Of a stretch of 64,000 nucleotides of DNA, positions 2,713-40,579 are shown piece by piece; within the stretch, counting starts at the first letter, position 1; each line of letters opens with the position of its first letter. The notes beneath the pieces were generated by a model. The model saw nothing but the letters and a program-made list of their open reading frames with translations. It had not been told where the DNA came from and made no database searches. This stretch comes from Kushneria pakistanensis (GTDB taxonomy: Bacteria; Pseudomonadota; Gammaproteobacteria; Pseudomonadales; Halomonadaceae), in contig NZ_BMZM01000001.1 in NCBI RefSeq assembly GCF_014652795.1, positions 558,001 to 622,000 on the forward strand. Reading direction: 5' to 3'. The translations under genes and the position numbers were made by a program.

Positions 2713-2728
2713 TAGAATTTATATTCCA
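2713..2728. promoter_or_regulatory. Putative RpiR-type operator in front of the inositol operon
   Basis: TAGAA-TTTATA-TTCCA, one mismatch from a TGGAA-N6-TTCCA palindrome that recurs at 2999-3014 and 6925-6940. The six-base spacer reads TATAAA on the minus strand and could be the -10 element of the operon, so a bound repressor would mask it. The link to the neighbouring RpiR regulator is inferred. Confidence 0.55.
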
Positions 2729-2998
2729 TATGTTCAACGGCTGGAAAATGCGATCTATCGGCTTGCAGAGGAAAGTGCTTGTTTTGTCAATTTTCTTTAA
2801 ATACAAATACTTATTATATAAAAGAGGGGTTTTTGCACTTTGCGTCAGGCGTAGAATGTCTGTTTCATGAGACCAAAGATGTAGGCCCTGTCCTTAAATC
2901 AGACACATTTTTCTTGTCTGCCCGGGTATACGCCGGGGCAAGTCAAGGGGGATGTTTTCCCATCGACCAAAGTTGGCACATTCCATTTGTTTTAATCA

Positions 2999-3014
2999 TG
3001 GAATTTACATTTCA
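2999..3014. promoter_or_regulatory. Putative RpiR-type operator in front of the regulator gene
   Basis: TGGAA-TTTACA-TTTCA, one mismatch from TGGAA-N6-TTCCA, located 69 bp before the regulator start. It overlaps a longer inverted pair, ATTCCAT at about 2980 and ATGGAAT at 2998-3004. This fits autoregulation. The gap 2636-3082 holds the divergent promoters and no convincing gene. Confidence 0.5.
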
Positions 3015-3082
3015 TCGGTTTTAGACTGCGCGCCATACAGGTTCATCCAATGCAGGCGTCAGGAAACAATAGAGAGAACATC

Positions 3083-3937
3083 ATGAGCCAGTTACCGCAG
3101 AGCTTCGCCGAGCTGGAAGAGCGCATTACAGCCCAGTACGGCAGCCTCAGCCGGCGCCTGCAGCAGACCGCCCGCTTTTTGCTTGATCACCCCCAGGAAG
3201 TGGCTTTTGCCACTGTTGCACGGCTGGCGGAACAGGCAGGTGTGACGCCCTCGACCCTGATTCGCTTTGCCAACAGCTTTGGTTTCAAGGGATTTTCGGA
3301 AATGCAGCAGCTTTTTCGCTCACGACTGGTCGATGAGTTGCCCAACTATGCCGAACGCATTCGAGCCATTCGTACCGCGACGGGCGAAACGCCGGACAGT
3401 ACGCAGTTGCTGTGGGAATTTTCCGAGGCCAATCGGGAGGTGCTTGAAGCATTACCCGGACGTATTGATCCGGTCCAGCTCGAGCGTGCCCTGGACATTC
3501 TCGAGCAGGCCGAGATCGTACATGTACTGGGCGCCAGGCGAAGCTTCGTGGTCGCCAGCTACTTCACCTATGCGCTGCATCACATCGGTAAGCGGGCCTT
3601 TTTGATGGATGGGCTGGGGGGGATGCACTCAGAGCAGATGAAAGCGGTGGGCCCCAGGGATGCCATGTTGATTATCAGTTTTTCGCCCTATGCCCGGGAG
3701 ACCCATGACGCTGTGGCTGAAGCCTGTGAGCGCGGCATTCCTCATATCGTGATCACCGATTCGAGCCTGAGTCCGCTGGCGCCCACGGCTGACGTTTCAC
3801 TGATCGTGCATGAAGCAGAGGTCAAAAGTTTCCGCGGACTGACGGCATCTCTGTGTCTGAGTCAGACACTGGCCATTTCACTGGGGGTTCGTCAGGACCG
3901 AAAGAATGACGGTAGCCATCAGGAACAGGAGGGTTAA
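3083..3937 (+). CDS. RpiR/MurR-family transcriptional regulator of the inositol genes
   Basis: 284 residues from the ATG at 3083 (MSQLPQSFAELEERI); an upstream in-frame ATG at 3050 is possible but less usual for the family. Residues 1-80 form the RpiR helix-turn-helix (VARLAEQAGVTPSTLIRFANSFGFKGFSEMQQ), and residues about 125-270 form a SIS sugar-phosphate-binding domain (EIVHVLGARRSFVVASYFTYALH). RpiR proteins repress or activate sugar-phosphate genes in response to a phosphorylated ligand. Here the gene is divergent from iolI-iolH-iolG and 60 bp ahead of iolB, so it is the likely regulator of inositol use. The shared TGGAA-N6-TTCCA palindromes are candidate sites. Family assignment is firm; the ligand is unknown. 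Confidence 0.9.
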   Translation: MSQLPQSFAELEERITAQYGSLSRRLQQTARFLLDHPQEVAFATVARLAEQAGVTPSTLIRFANSFGFKGFSEMQQLFRSRLVDELPNYAERIRAIRTATGETPDSTQLLWEFSEANREVLEALPGRIDPVQLERALDILEQAEIVHVLGARRSFVVASYFTYALHHIGKRAFLMDGLGGMHSEQMKAVGPRDAMLIISFSPYARETHDAVAEACERGIPHIVITDSSLSPLAPTADVSLIVHEAEVKSFRGLTASLCLSQTLAISLGVRQDRKNDGSHQEQEG

Positions 3938-3997
3938 ACACCGGGTAAATAGTTTGTCTTCATTGTTATTCACGGCTTCATTCATGGAGGATTCAAT

Positions 3998-4801
3998 ATG
4001 AGTTCGCTTCTGGTTCGACCTCAAAACCCCGATGCCCAGGGGAAGATTCTCGAGGTCACTCCCGAGTCTGCTGGCTGGGAACATGTCGGCTTTCGCGTTC
4101 ACAAACTGCCCAAAGGCGAGAAGGTTTCCTGGCAGACCGGCGACAGGGAGGAGTGTCTTGTACTGCTGACCGGTTGTGCGACCATTGCCTGCGGGAATGA
4201 AGCGTGGGAAAACATCGGCGATCGCATGGATGTTTTCGAGAAAAAGCGTCCCTATGCTGTCTACTTTCCCAATGACACTTCCTATAGCGTTGAGGCAGTC
4301 ACTGATCTGGAAGTTGCTGTCTGCAGCGCACCGGGTAAAGGAAGTTACAAGGCACGACTGATTGCGCCGGAACAGATCAACAGTGCTACTCGAGGCGAAG
4401 GCAGTAATGTGCGTCATGTGCACGATATTCTGCCGGAAACCGAGGAGGCCGATGGTCTGCTGGTGGTCGAGGTCTATACGCCGGCAGGGAATTGGTCGAG
4501 CTATCCGCCGCACAAGCATGACCAGGATAACCTTCCGCACGAATCGCAGCTCGAAGAGACCTATTATCACCTCCTTAACCCCTCGCAGGGCTTTGCGCTG
4601 CACCGGGTTTACACTGACGACCGTTCTCTGGATGAGACCATGGCCGTGGAACACGGCAACTGTGTTCTGGTACCCAGGGGGTATCACCCGGTAGGCGCGC
4701 CACATGGCTATGAGCTGTACTATCTGAATGTGATGGCCGGGCCCAAAAGGGTGTGGAAGTTTCACAACGATCCGGATCACGAGTGGATGCTCAAACAATA
4801 A
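3998..4801 (+). CDS. iolB: 5-deoxy-glucuronate isomerase
   Basis: 267 residues, starting MSSLLVRPQNPDAQG after a GGAGG site. IolB converts 5-deoxy-D-glucuronate to 2-deoxy-5-keto-D-gluconate in inositol degradation. The protein has the duplicated cupin (KduI/IolB) layout. SSYPPHKHDQDNLPHESQLEETYYH at about residues 166-190 (shown here as family motif: YPPHKHD with a following E) supplies the His/Glu metal ligands. Length is normal for the family. It follows the RpiR regulator on the same strand and ends at a rho-independent terminator at 4828-4854. Very confident. Confidence 0.96.
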   Translation: MSSLLVRPQNPDAQGKILEVTPESAGWEHVGFRVHKLPKGEKVSWQTGDREECLVLLTGCATIACGNEAWENIGDRMDVFEKKRPYAVYFPNDTSYSVEAVTDLEVAVCSAPGKGSYKARLIAPEQINSATRGEGSNVRHVHDILPETEEADGLLVVEVYTPAGNWSSYPPHKHDQDNLPHESQLEETYYHLLNPSQGFALHRVYTDDRSLDETMAVEHGNCVLVPRGYHPVGAPHGYELYYLNVMAGPKRVWKFHNDPDHEWMLKQ

Positions 4802-4827
4802 GGGCGATAAGGCCTGGTCGATGATTG

Positions 4828-4854
4828 AAAAACCCCGCTATGGCGGGGTTTTTT
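4828..4854 (+). terminator. Rho-independent terminator after iolB
   Basis: A CCCCGC / GCGGGG stem with loop TAT is followed by TTTTTT and lies 27 bp after the iolB stop. Confidence 0.9.
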
Positions 4855-4983
4855 GTTGCCCGGAAAGGCCCCGAACAGCAGGCAAAAATGAATCGAGGTT
4901 TTGTACCGTTATCATGTTTTGTCTTCTACGCCACCGTGATTCGTAATGCCGGCGATCGTTGGATAATGGTTGGTACAGCAGCC

Positions 4984-5010
4984 AAAAAAAGGCGCCCGCA
5001 GGGCGCCCAA
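4984..5010 (-). terminator. Rho-independent terminator after the NCS1 permease gene
   Basis: On the minus strand a GGGCGCC-rich stem (GGCGCCC / GGGCGCC) is followed by seven T, just after the permease stop at 5027. Confidence 0.88.
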
Positions 5011-5026
5011 AAGATGTCGGCAATGA

Positions 5027-6781
5027 TTATCGGTGAGGCGTGTTGTCCGACGTAACTGCTGTTTTTTGCCACTGACGCTTGTATGAGGCGACGTCGCTTC
5101 GAACGCGTCGGCGGCCCTTCATCCACTGCGTGGCGGCAATAAAGTACACGACAGTGGGGGCGATGATGAGCCACCGGAAGGTTGAGAGGAAGCCGAGTGG
5201 TTTATGACTCATGTAGCTTGCTACAGCGATCGCCAAAATAACGACAAGGCAGGCCAGTGCCAGGTAGTACCAGGGGTTGCGGCGTTGTACCGGCACAGTG
5301 GCCGGCGGCTTATCGCCGGCAATTTCTTCAGGGGTCACCGGACCATAGGCGGCTAGATGAAGATCTCCCTTCGACTCGCGCCGCGCCCCCATCAAGACAC
5401 AGATCAGCGGATAGCCGACAAGGCTGGTCAGCCAGACGGGGATGAATAGGGTGAACAGATGAATGGCATCGAGAGACATCAGAATTACACCCACGGCCAC
5501 GCTCATCCCCCAGGTGACAAACGCAGGAACGTTATCGATGTTTTTCTGATGCTCACGCCAGAAGGGTCGGATGCCCTGACGCGGCAGAATGAAATGTTCC
5601 GCTGCAATGATGCCGCCGATAGGCGCAATCAGCATGATGAAATATGACAGCACATTCAGCCACTGATTGAACACAAAAGGCGAACACGCAATGACCGTGG
5701 TCAGTGAGCCGACAGCCAGCGTCACCTGCGTACGCGAATAGCGTGGGAAAATGGATTGGAAAGCGAGTCCCGCGCGGTAAAGACACGGAATGGACGTTGT
5801 CCAGCCGGCAATCACCACCGCCAGGAGCCCCATGATGCCCAGAATCCTGAAGGCGACGCCGCCCGGGTCCATATCGATCAGCTGCGACTGAGCCAGCATG
5901 GCTGCAGTGGCGCCCATCAGCCCGGAGCATAGCCAGGCCACGAAGTGACCGATGTACATGCCGGCGGCCGAAAAGTAGCCATAGGAGGTCTTGCGGGCAA
6001 AGCGCAGAGTGCTCATGTCGCTCATGCCCAGATGTTGTGGCATGTTTGCCCCCCAGGCCCAGGCCGCAATGATCCATACTGAAATACCGGGATCGCCGGC
6101 CGGAGTTGTGCCGGTCCAGACGAACTGATCGACCACGTTGGACAGACCGATCACACCCTGCTGCTCGCCCAGCTGCAGCAGTATCCCGATCGAAACAATA
6201 CCGCTGGCCACAAACATGACCGCCATCCAAGGAGCGCAGACCGTTGAGAAATTGGCGATCAGTTTGAAGCCCTTAAGAGTCAGCCAGACCGTGATGGCAC
6301 CTACAAAAAGGGCCAGGATCACAAAGCTGACGCTTTCTGGATACCAGCCGGTCTGGGTAGGAATGCCGGTCACGACTCGAAACGCTGAGGCGGAGACGGT
6401 GATCATGGCGCCAGAAATCACGGCAAAAATGAGCCCGTTAAGCAAATTGTACATCCAGGCAAAGCGCTTGCCGGCCAGCCGCTCGATGTACCAATAAAGA
6501 GTCATGCGCGAGCGGGTGGCAATGGGCGTGCATACCCACGCCCAGGAAAGGACCGCCATGAGATTGCCCAGCAGCAGTCCCAGTAGCAGGTCGCCGGTGC
6601 TGACGCCGAGTGCGACCAGTGACGCCCCGATCACAAATTCGGTACCGGCGACGTGTTCCCCGGCGAAAGAGCCCAGAAAATATTTGCCGCTCAGCTGTCG
6701 GCTGGGCGGGATGCGCGTACGCTCCAGCTCATCCGTATTACGGGTCTGGCCGGCGTGTCGAGATGAAGTCTTGCTGGTCAT
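5027..6781 (-). CDS. NCS1-type (purine-cytosine permease-like) transporter in the inositol cluster
   Basis: 584 residues, multi-spanning, start supported by GGGAG nine bases upstream. The N-terminal half resembles nucleobase:cation symporter-1 proteins: GASLVALGVSTGDLLLGLLLGNLMAVLS-like first helices, SRMTLYWYIERLAGKRFAW, a WIIAAWAWGANMPQHLGMSD segment, and a following GAGMYIGHF-like helix. The C-terminus is longer than in typical CodB/PucI proteins: after residue 490 there is a hydrophilic stretch, then two more membrane spans near 515 and 545. NCS1 carriers usually move nucleobases, allantoin or hydantoins. Here the gene is convergent with iolB and divergent from a Gfo/Idh/MocA dehydrogenase, and shares an RpiR-like operator with the inositol operon, so an inositol-related substrate is an inference. 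Own terminator at 4984-5010. Confidence 0.8.
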   Translation of the reverse strand: MTSKTSSRHAGQTRNTDELERTRIPPSRQLSGKYFLGSFAGEHVAGTEFVIGASLVALGVSTGDLLLGLLLGNLMAVLSWAWVCTPIATRSRMTLYWYIERLAGKRFAWMYNLLNGLIFAVISGAMITVSASAFRVVTGIPTQTGWYPESVSFVILALFVGAITVWLTLKGFKLIANFSTVCAPWMAVMFVASGIVSIGILLQLGEQQGVIGLSNVVDQFVWTGTTPAGDPGISVWIIAAWAWGANMPQHLGMSDMSTLRFARKTSYGYFSAAGMYIGHFVAWLCSGLMGATAAMLAQSQLIDMDPGGVAFRILGIMGLLAVVIAGWTTSIPCLYRAGLAFQSIFPRYSRTQVTLAVGSLTTVIACSPFVFNQWLNVLSYFIMLIAPIGGIIAAEHFILPRQGIRPFWREHQKNIDNVPAFVTWGMSVAVGVILMSLDAIHLFTLFIPVWLTSLVGYPLICVLMGARRESKGDLHLAAYGPVTPEEIAGDKPPATVPVQRRNPWYYLALACLVVILAIAVASYMSHKPLGFLSTFRWLIIAPTVVYFIAATQWMKGRRRVRSDVASYKRQWQKTAVTSDNTPHR

Positions 6782-6924
6782 TCGGTACTCCCGCGGCGTT
6801 TGGCTCAGGGCCGGTCCGCTTTTAGAGGTTCGGATCAGAGGACTTTCTGCTGATGAAATACGCGTTCGAATGTAAAGCGCTCTGGAACGGCTTTCAAACC
6901 GTTTGTTCTATAACTTTGGTTTCA

Positions 6925-6940
6925 TGGAACAAAGATTCCA
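6925..6940. promoter_or_regulatory. Putative RpiR-type operator between permease and dehydrogenase
   Basis: A perfect palindrome, TGGAA-CAAAGA-TTCCA, in the 351-bp divergent gap 6782-7132. It matches the near-palindromes at 2713-2728 and 2999-3014, placing the permease and the second dehydrogenase in the same probable regulon. The rest of the gap shows no gene. Confidence 0.6.
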
Positions 6941-7132
6941 ACAAGAGGATACTTCTTTTCGGTCGTCGGCTTTTGCCATCGGGTGTTGCCAAAACATTCC
7001 TGAATAACAAAGTCGTGTTTCTTCTACGCTCAACGGCATTTTTATGGGCGAGTGCCTGGCGATGAGGGCTTTTGTCTCTCTGATAGTCATTGAGTACCCA
7101 ATAACTGTCACCGGAATCAGGGGGAGGAAATC

Positions 7133-8146
7133 ATGGGAAAAATACGCGTTGGTATTCTGGGGGCGGGGGGAATTGCCGCGGTTCATGCGTCAATCCTGCA
7201 GCGTGATGAACGTGTTGAAATCGTGGCTGTCGCGGACATGGTTGAAGCCGCTGCCAAAAAACTGGCCACGACTATTGGTGAGCATGTGGTTTGTGGTGAC
7301 AGCGTGGTGTCGCTGATCGACGCAGGGGTGGATACTGTCTATGTCACCACACCAAACAGGACGCATCTGCAGCCGGTATTGACCTGCCTGAAAAACAGCA
7401 TCAACGTTTTTTGTGAAAAGCCGATGGCAACAAGTGTTGCGGAAGGGGAGCAAATTCTAAAAGCTGCCTGTGATTCAAAGGCAGTCTATAACCTCGGTAT
7501 GAGTAGACGTTTTGCCCACGCCCATCAATACATCAAGAAGTTGATCGATAGCGGTCGTCTCGAGCCCTTTTCGGCTCATGTTCGCCTTAACCGGGGTGAA
7601 CTGCTTAATCCTGCCTGGACAGCAGATCCCGATCAAACGGGTGGCTTTCTATATGAAACGACTATTCATCAGCTGGATTTGCTCGAGTACCTTTTTGGTC
7701 CGATCAAAACACTGAGATGTGAAGCCTGCCAAGCGATTTCTGACAGCGAGCTTGATAACTTTGCCATTCTCTTTACGTTCGAAAGCGGCATGGTTTGTAC
7801 CATGATGTCGAGCGCACATTCGGGATGGAGTTTTCCATTCGAGCGTGTCGAAATTTTCGGACGCTATGCCACACTCGAGACGCAGGAAATCGAGTCTGTA
7901 CGCTTCTCACCGGGTTTGAACCAGAAGATTGAAAGCGAGGAGTATCGGTTGCTTCCACACGACGAAAAGGGTGGCTATGTGCGAGAAAACCAGCTTTTTA
8001 TTGATGCACTGGTCAACGATAGCGAACCACCTGTTCCGGTTGAGCAGGCGCAGCGCTTGAATCTTCTTATTGCCTGTGTATATGAAAGTGCGCGTGAGCA
8101 GAAGGAAATCGATTTTTCGACGCGGACACGTGAGATGATTGGCTAA
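7133..8146 (+). CDS. Gfo/Idh/MocA-family oxidoreductase (second inositol-type dehydrogenase)
   Basis: 337 residues with a GGAGG ribosome binding site. Residues 1-120 are the NAD(P)-binding Rossmann domain (IRVGILGAGGIAAVHASIL; NVFCEKPMATS with the catalytic-site Lys of the EKP motif). The remainder is the GFO C-terminal beta-sheet domain, with FLYETTIHQLDLLEYLFG supplying the conserved Asp-x3-His-like segment. It is divergent from the NCS1 permease. Such paralogues in inositol clusters often act on scyllo-inositol, chiro-inositol or related polyols; which one cannot be told here. It is clearly different from the partial IolG at the left edge. Base composition looks slightly lower in GC than the flanking genes. 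Confidence 0.85.
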   Translation: MGKIRVGILGAGGIAAVHASILQRDERVEIVAVADMVEAAAKKLATTIGEHVVCGDSVVSLIDAGVDTVYVTTPNRTHLQPVLTCLKNSINVFCEKPMATSVAEGEQILKAACDSKAVYNLGMSRRFAHAHQYIKKLIDSGRLEPFSAHVRLNRGELLNPAWTADPDQTGGFLYETTIHQLDLLEYLFGPIKTLRCEACQAISDSELDNFAILFTFESGMVCTMMSSAHSGWSFPFERVEIFGRYATLETQEIESVRFSPGLNQKIESEEYRLLPHDEKGGYVRENQLFIDALVNDSEPPVPVEQAQRLNLLIACVYESAREQKEIDFSTRTREMIG

Positions 8147-8240: not shown

Positions 8241-8258
8241 GTAAATCATGGAATTTAC
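8241..8258. repeat. GTAAAT-N6-ATTTAC inverted repeat sharing a 15-mer with the regulator promoter
   Basis: The sequence GTAAATCATGGAATTTAC lies 95 bp after the dehydrogenase stop. Its last 15 bases, AATCATGGAATTTAC, also occur at 2994-3008 upstream of the RpiR gene. It may be another regulator site or a remnant of duplicated promoter DNA. Confidence 0.4.
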
Positions 8259-8326
8259 CAGGTTACTGAACCGAAAGGTGTAGTAAAGCGTATAACAGGC
8301 GTGGCCCGATTTTGCCTTTCGCTGCA

Positions 8327-8371
8327 CTCATGATCTCTTGGTCGCAGGTTCGAGTCCTGCTGGGCCCACCA
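8327..8371 (+). other. 3'-terminal fragment of a CAU-anticodon tRNA gene (possible attachment-site scar)
   Basis: The segment starts in an anticodon-loop-like CTCATGA. It then has the variable loop, a perfect T arm (GCAGG / TTCGAGT / CCTGC at 8344-8360), the 3' half of an acceptor stem (TGGGCCC, 8361-8367) and an encoded ACCA. The 5' half is absent: no GGGCCCA acceptor strand and no D arm precede it, and the bases before the anticodon loop cannot pair with the TCTCT that follows. Integrases of tRNA-targeting islands leave exactly such 3' ends behind, so an att site is the likely origin. No integrase lies in the window. The remaining gap 8372-8580 holds only a small CGTTGCCG/CGGCAACG hairpin at 8519-8536. 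Confidence 0.7.
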
Positions 8372-8580
8372 ATCCTTTCAATATCTCAGCCGATTTCTTT
8401 TCTGCCTTTACGTTTTCATCCTGCGATGCAGCCACATTGTATTGCTGCTTTCACTTGATACTCTGCTGACAAGGACACGTCACGTGGATCCAGCGGAACT
8501 CCTTGGCATTCAGCGATGCGTTGCCGTCCGGCAACGAGAGCGTCAGCGCTAGCCTGCGGACTTAGCGTTCGTCGTCTCTT

Positions 8581-40125: not shown

Positions 40126-40579
40126 GATTATTGGCGCCGTATACAGATAGATAAAGGGGATAAAGGCCGGATTACCTTACCTCAAGGTCAGGAAGATGCC
40201 TAGTGTGAATATCAATAATTGGGCACCTTTATTGAAGGTTAAAATGCGTTATGAGTAGCAATGATTGATATACGGTCATTGTGAAGCCCTTGTACAAGGT
40301 TGATTCCTTGAAAGTGGCCGCTCGAGGGGTTCGCCAAACCTGCTTTTCCGGGGTTGCGCCGCACAGCTATCACATCGGCGTGACAACAAAAGGGTATTCA
40401 GTATCTGTATCAGGAAAGAAGCTTTCAGCATTTTTTAACTGTATGTTTGAACAGCTATAGAGGTGGCGTGCGTGTTGAAATACATTTTTTATCCTTGATT
40501 TTGATACTAATAAGAAAGGTATTTATTAAACGTATGATGACAGTAATTCAGGCGCCATTTATTTTAAATGATGACCGAA

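Follow-up and report, generated by a model that had tools for sequence, protein, structure and literature searches.

The inositol locus and its palindromic boxes

The subject of this analysis is a 16-bp palindrome, TGGAA-N6-TTCCA, that recurs in the gaps around an inositol gene cluster of Kushneria pakistanensis, within a stretch of 64,000 nucleotides (contig NZ_BMZM01000001.1, positions 558,001 to 622,000; hereafter the window). The cluster contains iolR (3083-3937, plus strand), which encodes a regulator of the RpiR family with an N-terminal helix-turn-helix (HTH) domain (HTH_6, PF01418, 46.2 bits against a cut-off of 28.3) and a C-terminal SIS domain (PF01380, 73.1 bits, cut-off 25). The protein is 48% identical to the annotated IolR of Salmonella, and 47% and 43% identical to proteins of Azospirillum and Asticcacaulis, respectively. 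It is followed by iolB, encoding 5-deoxy-glucuronate isomerase (3998-4801, plus strand; TIGR04378, 359.9 bits, cut-off 205). On the minus strand lie two genes for xylose-isomerase-like TIM barrels (both PF01261), TIM2 (1808-2635) and TIM1 (864-1760), and the 5' part of iolG (1-848), whose end is located left of the window at genome position C1:557838. The NCBIfam matches of TIM1 are all below cut-off, and TIM2 has no NCBIfam match at 0.001; the original prediction had named TIM2 iolI, which is a possible role for this TIM barrel. The iolG product scores just below its cut-off (NF052679, 531.7 bits against 540), and iolA, iolE, iolD and iolC, the last a kinase/aldolase fusion, lie directly left of the window with scores above their NCBIfam cut-offs. 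With iolB included, the inositol pathway looks complete as judged from its genes. Here iolR thus stands among iolA-E-D-C, iolG and iolB, and iol genes are also found near iolR in most, not all, of the 79 loci of relatives described below.

Beyond iolB, a gene on the minus strand (5027-6781) encodes a permease of the NCS1 fold, which we propose to take up inositol or a similar polyol. It is divergent from a gene for a second dehydrogenase of the Gfo/Idh/MocA type (7133-8146, plus strand), which resembles inositol dehydrogenase below the cut-off (TIGR04380, 142 bits against 355). At E 1e-60 this second dehydrogenase has no match in the other 150 of 151 family genomes, and its relatives on plasmids (the 8 listed among 1,196) share about 28% identity with it, which is uninformative on the substrate.

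When no more than one mismatch is allowed, TGGAA-N6-TTCCA is matched at just three places of the window, the boxes at 2713-2728 (TAGAATTTATATTCCA), 2999-3014 (TGGAATTTACATTTCA) and 6925-6940 (TGGAACAAAGATTCCA); the former two carry one mismatch each and the third is a perfect copy. Box 2713 lies about 78 bp upstream of the TIM2 ATG, at the head of the genes TIM2-TIM1-iolG, and its TTCTA arm is seen again before TIM2 in relatives (e.g. loci L021, L022, L024 and L026). Box 2999 starts 84 bp before the ATG of iolR, where it probably mediates autoregulation. Box 6925 is located 143 bp before the ATG of the permease and about 193 bp before that of the second dehydrogenase. The coordinates and letters given in the original prediction proved exact for all three, as did its placing of a perfect copy between the permease and the second dehydrogenase. 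Its statement that all boxes lie in promoter gaps and none inside a gene holds with the likely ATG starts that flank them (2635 minus, 3083 plus, 6781 minus and 7133 plus). Mechanical frames, however, overlap two of the boxes, in that the 1808-2635 gene would reach over 2713 if it began at a TTG, and a 92-residue frame (6908-7186, minus strand) runs over 6925. Neither is taken as a gene.

We read these palindromes as putative operators of IolR, through which it would control the inositol genes, its own gene and the permease, and give this reading a probability of about 0.86. The core is an ordinary IolR regulon of an already published type, for which the sequence comparisons provide good support here. 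What is new, and deserves follow-up, is the apparent wiring of an NCS1-fold permease into it and a rule of operator spacing. New as well are the loss of the base-stacking tryptophan from this permease, with the carrier role proposed below, and the position of the module between tRNA-Met remnants.

Specificity of the box and its link to iolR

By itself, TGGAA-N6-TTCCA is too loose a motif, because with at most one mismatch it occurs at 99 places in the whole 3.52-Mb genome, 4 of them perfect, against 55 for the reversed control, and because the window count at up to two mismatches (27 against 21.4 ± 4.2 expected from shuffles) is not significant. The other three perfect copies sit inside open reading frames, mechanical ones whose longest span 435, 678 and 2,151 bases. 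With less than twice the control count and no enrichment in the window at two mismatches, the loose scan was rejected as proof.

Of two sharper tests, the cleaner one is a weight matrix trained on 122 sites in relatives, a set that excludes this genome and all permease promoters. Among 63,985 window positions, the three boxes rank first (2713, 25.9 bits), second (6925, 23.8 bits) and third (2999, 23.7 bits), well clear of the best unrelated place at 14.8 bits, for which 46 of the 99 loose-consensus places were scored. The fourth rank is held by a tentative weaker box, TAGAATGTCTGTTTCA, at 2852-2867 (15.0 bits), in the same divergent gap as 2713 and 2999. A similarly weak box, TGGAAAATTCATTCCT, lies before iolC, left of the window at C1:557695 (15.2 bits), and at a distance of 29 bp from it there is a still lower-scoring site (10.1 bits). 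The boxes at 2852 and before iolC, which the original prediction does not name, are barely above the best unrelated place, and we regard them as tentative. Elsewhere in the window, a cluster of three weaker matrix matches was seen at 40476, 40644 and 40745 (12.9, 13.4 and 8.1 bits).

The other sharper test was the degenerate pattern TRGAAY-N4-RTTYYA, whose letters were picked with knowledge of these sites. It occurs at four distinct places in the 3.52 Mb, 2713, 2852, 2999 and 6925, all at this locus, and its reversed control gives 3 forward and 6 reverse matches genome-wide. It was rejected as a test of enrichment and serves for location only. The original prediction had proposed a genome scan, with many unrelated hits as the sign of failure; the loose consensus does badly by that measure (99 against 55), whereas the relatives' matrix singles out the predicted sites.

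The box is conserved where iolR is found. We collected 79 loci around relatives of the RpiR protein, 61 of them, by organism name, from genera that we take to be Halomonadaceae, and 18 others (Pseudomonas, Azotobacter, Rhizobacter and two distant ones). In 56 of the 61 loci, a box with no more than one mismatch is present within 300 bp upstream of the RpiR gene, and in 37 it is perfect; the reversed control is absent from all of these regions. Spacers of 2-5 or 7-12 bp yield a box in at most 11 of the 61. Other upstream regions of the Halomonadaceae loci contain the box before TIM2 (9/14) and iolB (1/60) and show none before iolA (50 regions), iolE (59), iolD (59), iolG (12) or TIM1 (13); the reversed control is seen before iolE only (2/59). 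In the 18 other loci, the box precedes iolR in 9 of 16 and iolC in 9 of 12 testable cases. Over the 61 loci, 103 boxes with at most one mismatch fall in the 95 kb outside mechanical frames against 73 in the 1,109 kb inside, while the reversed control gives 2 outside and 6 inside.

The same association appears across the 151 family genomes, 48 of which encode this RpiR protein (threshold E 1e-60) and 103 of which do not. Without correction for kinship, the perfect form TGGAAY-N4-RTTCCA averages 1.90 copies per genome with iolR and 0.43 without it, and at least one copy is present in 43/48 and 36/103 genomes, respectively; the reversed control is equal in the two groups (0.63 and 0.60). In genomes G020, G021, G035, G040 and G097, with and without iolR, a GC-rich palindrome, TGGAACGGCTGTTCCA, recurs, which is probably an unrelated conserved sequence.

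Precedent for the predicted binding of the RpiR protein to the box comes from Caulobacter, since excerpts of the published work (PMC2597717) give GGAA-N6-TTCC as the motif of its RpiR-type inositol repressor IolR. There, deletion of iolR derepresses, and mutation of box 1 of iolC raises expression. The box, the regulator family and the catabolic genes are thus shared with the alphaproteobacterial regulon, whereas the present bacterium belongs to another class and has a boxed NCS1-fold permease in addition. In Salmonella (plasmid record NZ_OM317741), whose IolR is the 48% identical regulator, one box with a single mismatch, TGGAATTTTTCTTCTA, lies between iolT1 and iolT2; unlike here, the importers annotated there, IolT1 and IolT2, are carriers of the major facilitator superfamily (MFS). 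An excerpt of PMC9430895 lists Halomonas among potential users of inositol and contains no account of such regulation. The comparison, with strong support from relatives, would extend to the Halomonadaceae a switch published for alphaproteobacteria, and it replaces the loose consensus by a matrix that is specific.

We infer the binding, the repression and the effector, as well as the permease substrate and the acquisition as a unit taken up below, from these comparisons. Most likely, an IolR dimer would contact each box with both of its HTH domains and so repress the divergent TIM2-TIM1-iolG and iolR-iolB promoters, and likewise the iolC-D-E-A genes and the permease with its divergent dehydrogenase. 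The permease would import the substrate, and a phosphorylated intermediate of inositol breakdown, on binding to the SIS domain, would release the repression. For Sinorhizobium, 2-deoxy-5-keto-gluconic acid 6-phosphate has been proposed as the IolR effector (PMC8877191, in an excerpt citing Kohler et al. 2011).

The boxes of relatives also tend to come in pairs. Counting sites that score 14 or more on the matrix, and pairs within 200 bp, over the 79 loci, we found 59 pairs, of which 50 are spaced by 58-60 bp (one per locus, in 50 loci), 6 by 29 bp, and one each by 25, 33 and 88 bp. Among 12 loci opened, the pair lies between the binding-protein gene of a first ATP-binding cassette (ABC) importer, ABC-1, and iolR in five, ahead of a second ABC operon that follows iolB or iolR in five, and between iolR and iolB in two. 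This spacing resembles that of the Caulobacter iolC boxes, which are placed at -119 to -104 and -60 to -45, i.e. 59 bp apart, in the part of PMC2597717 concerned. Unlike Caulobacter, this genome has no 58-60 bp pair in its iol gaps, where the boxes are 139 and 147 bp apart in the divergent gap and 29 bp apart upstream of iolC. RpiR regulators are tetrameric in crystals, and the MurR tetramer has been proposed to bridge two sites (excerpt of PMC12713135). By analogy, one reading of the recurring 58-60 bp pairs is that a single tetramer may span two IolR operators, and the pairing is a hint that RpiR tetramers bridge operators in this way.

The permease as a probable member of the regulon

At 65% identity or more, the permease is present in 7 of the 151 family genomes, one of which is the present genome, and it is found in an iol neighbourhood every time; in relatives its distance from iolA does not exceed about 6.2 kb, and here it adjoins iolB. 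Five of the six iol-linked orthologues outside this genome have an upstream box with one mismatch at most, at -107 to -141. No matrix score above 5.1 was obtained within 400 bp upstream of 19 paralogues (at most 44% identity), one of which (L146) has a one-mismatch place about 1.3 kb upstream. Since five of six orthologues are boxed, the paralogues are not within 400 bp, and the second dehydrogenase is unmatched in the other 150 genomes, the permease is predicted to belong to the IolR regulon, as an addition to the published one, and the box would not serve the dehydrogenase alone. The comparison with relatives thus supports the original proposal of one regulon that joins the inositol genes, the regulator and the permease.

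The structural model of the permease (pLDDT 79) has CodB and Mhp1, both NCS1 proteins, at Foldseek ranks 1-5 (TMt 0.81 for CodB and 0.71 for Mhp1). Pfam finds no relevant match, just a domain of unknown function at E 9.1, and does not recognise Transp_cyt_pur (PF02133), which at E 1e-20 picks out one other gene of this genome and not the permease. The NCBIfam model CytX matches weakly (31.6 bits, cut-off 309.85), and searches of solved structures by sequence, with a single query or a profile, give nothing relevant. Profile alignment by hhalign to 26 Transp_cyt_pur sequences (25 from family genomes plus E. coli CodB) reaches a probability of 99.1 and E 4e-19 over 366 columns.

In the CodB binding site, as given in an excerpt of PMC9379551, the base is stacked by Trp108 of transmembrane helix 3 (TM3) and Phe204 of TM6, and E. 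coli CodB carries the same residues at that numbering. The position of Trp108 is I, V or L in 23/23 permease members against W in 25/26 of the Transp_cyt_pur set (alignment confidence 7), and that of Asn280 is S or A in 23/23 against N in 22/26. In TM6, aromatic residues are kept nearby (W or F at 241, and W243), although with an alignment confidence of 2-6 this is uncertain. The TM8 threonines of the Na2 sodium site, T328 and T329, are kept in 23/23 (confidence 9). Accordingly, the permease shares with CodB and Mhp1 the fold and both sodium-site threonines; unlike CodB, it lacks the TM3 Trp and Asn280, and it comprises 584 residues against 419 in E. coli CodB, with extra C-terminal helices.

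The neighbours of this branch across bacteria are genes of inositol, L-rhamnose, mannitol/arabinitol-type and polysaccharide metabolism. Ten plasmid records have a relative of the permease, and seven were opened: L-rhamnose genes lie beside it in two, and in two more the neighbours are a gene of the mannitol dehydrogenase family and one for a carbohydrate kinase. Of the remaining three, one has genes for a sulfatase and a sugar kinase as well as kduD, one has glycosyl hydrolases, and one is unannotated. Seven paralogue neighbourhoods were taken from family genomes and five analysed. The paralogue of this genome itself (L197, C2:726000-744000) is found in an L-rhamnose cluster with an L-rhamnose 1-dehydrogenase (above cut-off) and an alpha-L-rhamnosidase. 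One paralogue precedes a fructuronate reductase/arabinitol dehydrogenase-like gene (below cut-off), two precede ABC genes of the sugar-importer type, and one lies near a fuconolactonase-like gene far below cut-off.

Residues and neighbours together suggest that the permease could be a sodium-coupled carrier of inositol or a sugar. We lean slightly towards the view that it comes from an NCS1-fold branch that moved from nucleobases to sugars and polyols, keeping the sodium site and losing the stacking Trp, and that in the inositol case the branch entered the IolR regulon and replaces an ABC importer in some genomes, including this one. Among the open-licence papers listed by our searches, none showed an NCS1 carrier of inositol or sugars in its title or the start of its abstract. 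If true, the carrier reading would mean that the fold of nucleobase and hydantoin carriers also serves sugars, and it would correct labels such as 'nucleoside transporter' on relatives; an uncharacterised transporter family would be placed in a pathway from which its substrate can be predicted.

Neither of the two ABC importers known from the iol clusters of relatives was found here at E 1e-60, a search that did not extend to MFS and other carriers. Of the 48 genomes with iolR (E 1e-60), 34 have the binding protein of ABC-1, 7 have the permease (at least 65%) and none has both (Fisher p 4.7e-5, uncorrected for kinship). Five of the 48 have none of these importers (ABC-1, ABC-2 and the permease; other transporter classes were not searched), and the notion of a clean swap of ABC importer for permease is weakened. 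The second importer, ABC-2, lies after iolB or iolR in relatives (L161:1437-2450, L165:17175-18092 and L163:17252-18001), with IolR-type boxes in front, and is distinct from ABC-1, which in other loci is located between iolC and iolR.

Alternative explanations and genomic setting

A different regulator, be it a second RpiR protein, a LacI-type or a global one, might own the boxes while IolR binds elsewhere. The half-site TGGAA is indeed simple, and 36 of the 103 genomes without this iolR still have a perfect box. Nevertheless, the excess of boxes follows iolR while the control is equal, the published IolR box is identical in form (PMC2597717, in excerpt), and iolR itself is preceded by a box in 56 of 61 loci, so that we consider another owner improbable. 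Chance likeness of AT-rich promoter gaps would agree with the missing enrichment at two mismatches and with a degenerate pattern no commoner genome-wide than its reversed control, but it is hardly credible when a matrix from other genomes ranks exactly these sites 1-3 and the box before iolR recurs chiefly with a 6-bp spacer. Somewhat less remote, although still unlikely, is the possibility that the 6925 box serves only the divergent second dehydrogenase and that the permease is a passenger importing a nucleobase or another non-inositol compound. The box does lie between both genes, and the fold is that of nucleobase carriers; however, five of six permease orthologues are boxed while the dehydrogenase is unmatched in the other family genomes, the base-stacking Trp is gone in all 23 aligned members, and several relatives of the permease stand beside sugar or polyol genes.

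Several observations weigh against control by IolR through these palindromes. Boxes 2713 and 2999 are imperfect palindromes, and consensus scans of the promoters give one site per gap, about as many as in shuffles. In relatives, a box with at most one mismatch is found within 300 bp before iolC in just 13 of 60 cases, and the sixth permease orthologue (L135) has only a two-mismatch box of 10.3 bits. The Azospirillum plasmid iol locus, whose regulator is the 47% identical one, has no box at one mismatch, which argues against universality. In the published work, as far as the excerpts go, mutation of the second iolC box of Caulobacter has no effect (PMC2597717), and an iolR mutation in Ensifer aridi is not accompanied by a rise in iolC expression (PMC8877191).

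The putative IolR regulon appears to lie on an island. A remnant of a tRNA-Met 3' end with its flank (8296-8383, plus strand) marks the right edge of the island segment and is 92% identical over 88 bp to C1:546681-546768; within it, 8326-8371 matches the 3' end (C1:520462-520507) of the intact tRNA-Met at C1:520431-520507 with 96% identity. The iol cluster lies between the two copies of the tRNA 3' half, at C1:546681 and window position 8296. The intact tRNA is followed by a gene with no NCBIfam match at 1e-30, which we read as a tyrosine recombinase. In all 9 other genomes of the genus examined, iolR is absent at E 1e-60. Because the regulon stands between tRNA-Met remnants and iolR is missing from these nine congeners, it was probably acquired as one unit.

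Near the remnant, 15 bases at 8247-8261, past the second dehydrogenase, are identical to those at 2993-3007 before iolR (AATCATGGAATTTAC); by eye, this second copy holds half a box only. Over C1:520431-566383, the tandem repeats of the tRNA-Met 3' end and the recombinase-like gene have the appearance of two stacked island segments. Two frames in the iol segment are read as McrBC-like, with no PADLOC match at 1e-20. In the preceding tRNA-bounded segment, left of the window, C1:540001-546583 (L016:1-6583) contains homologues of PglZ and BrxL and a PADLOC match to Orf5, part of a BREX-type defence system.

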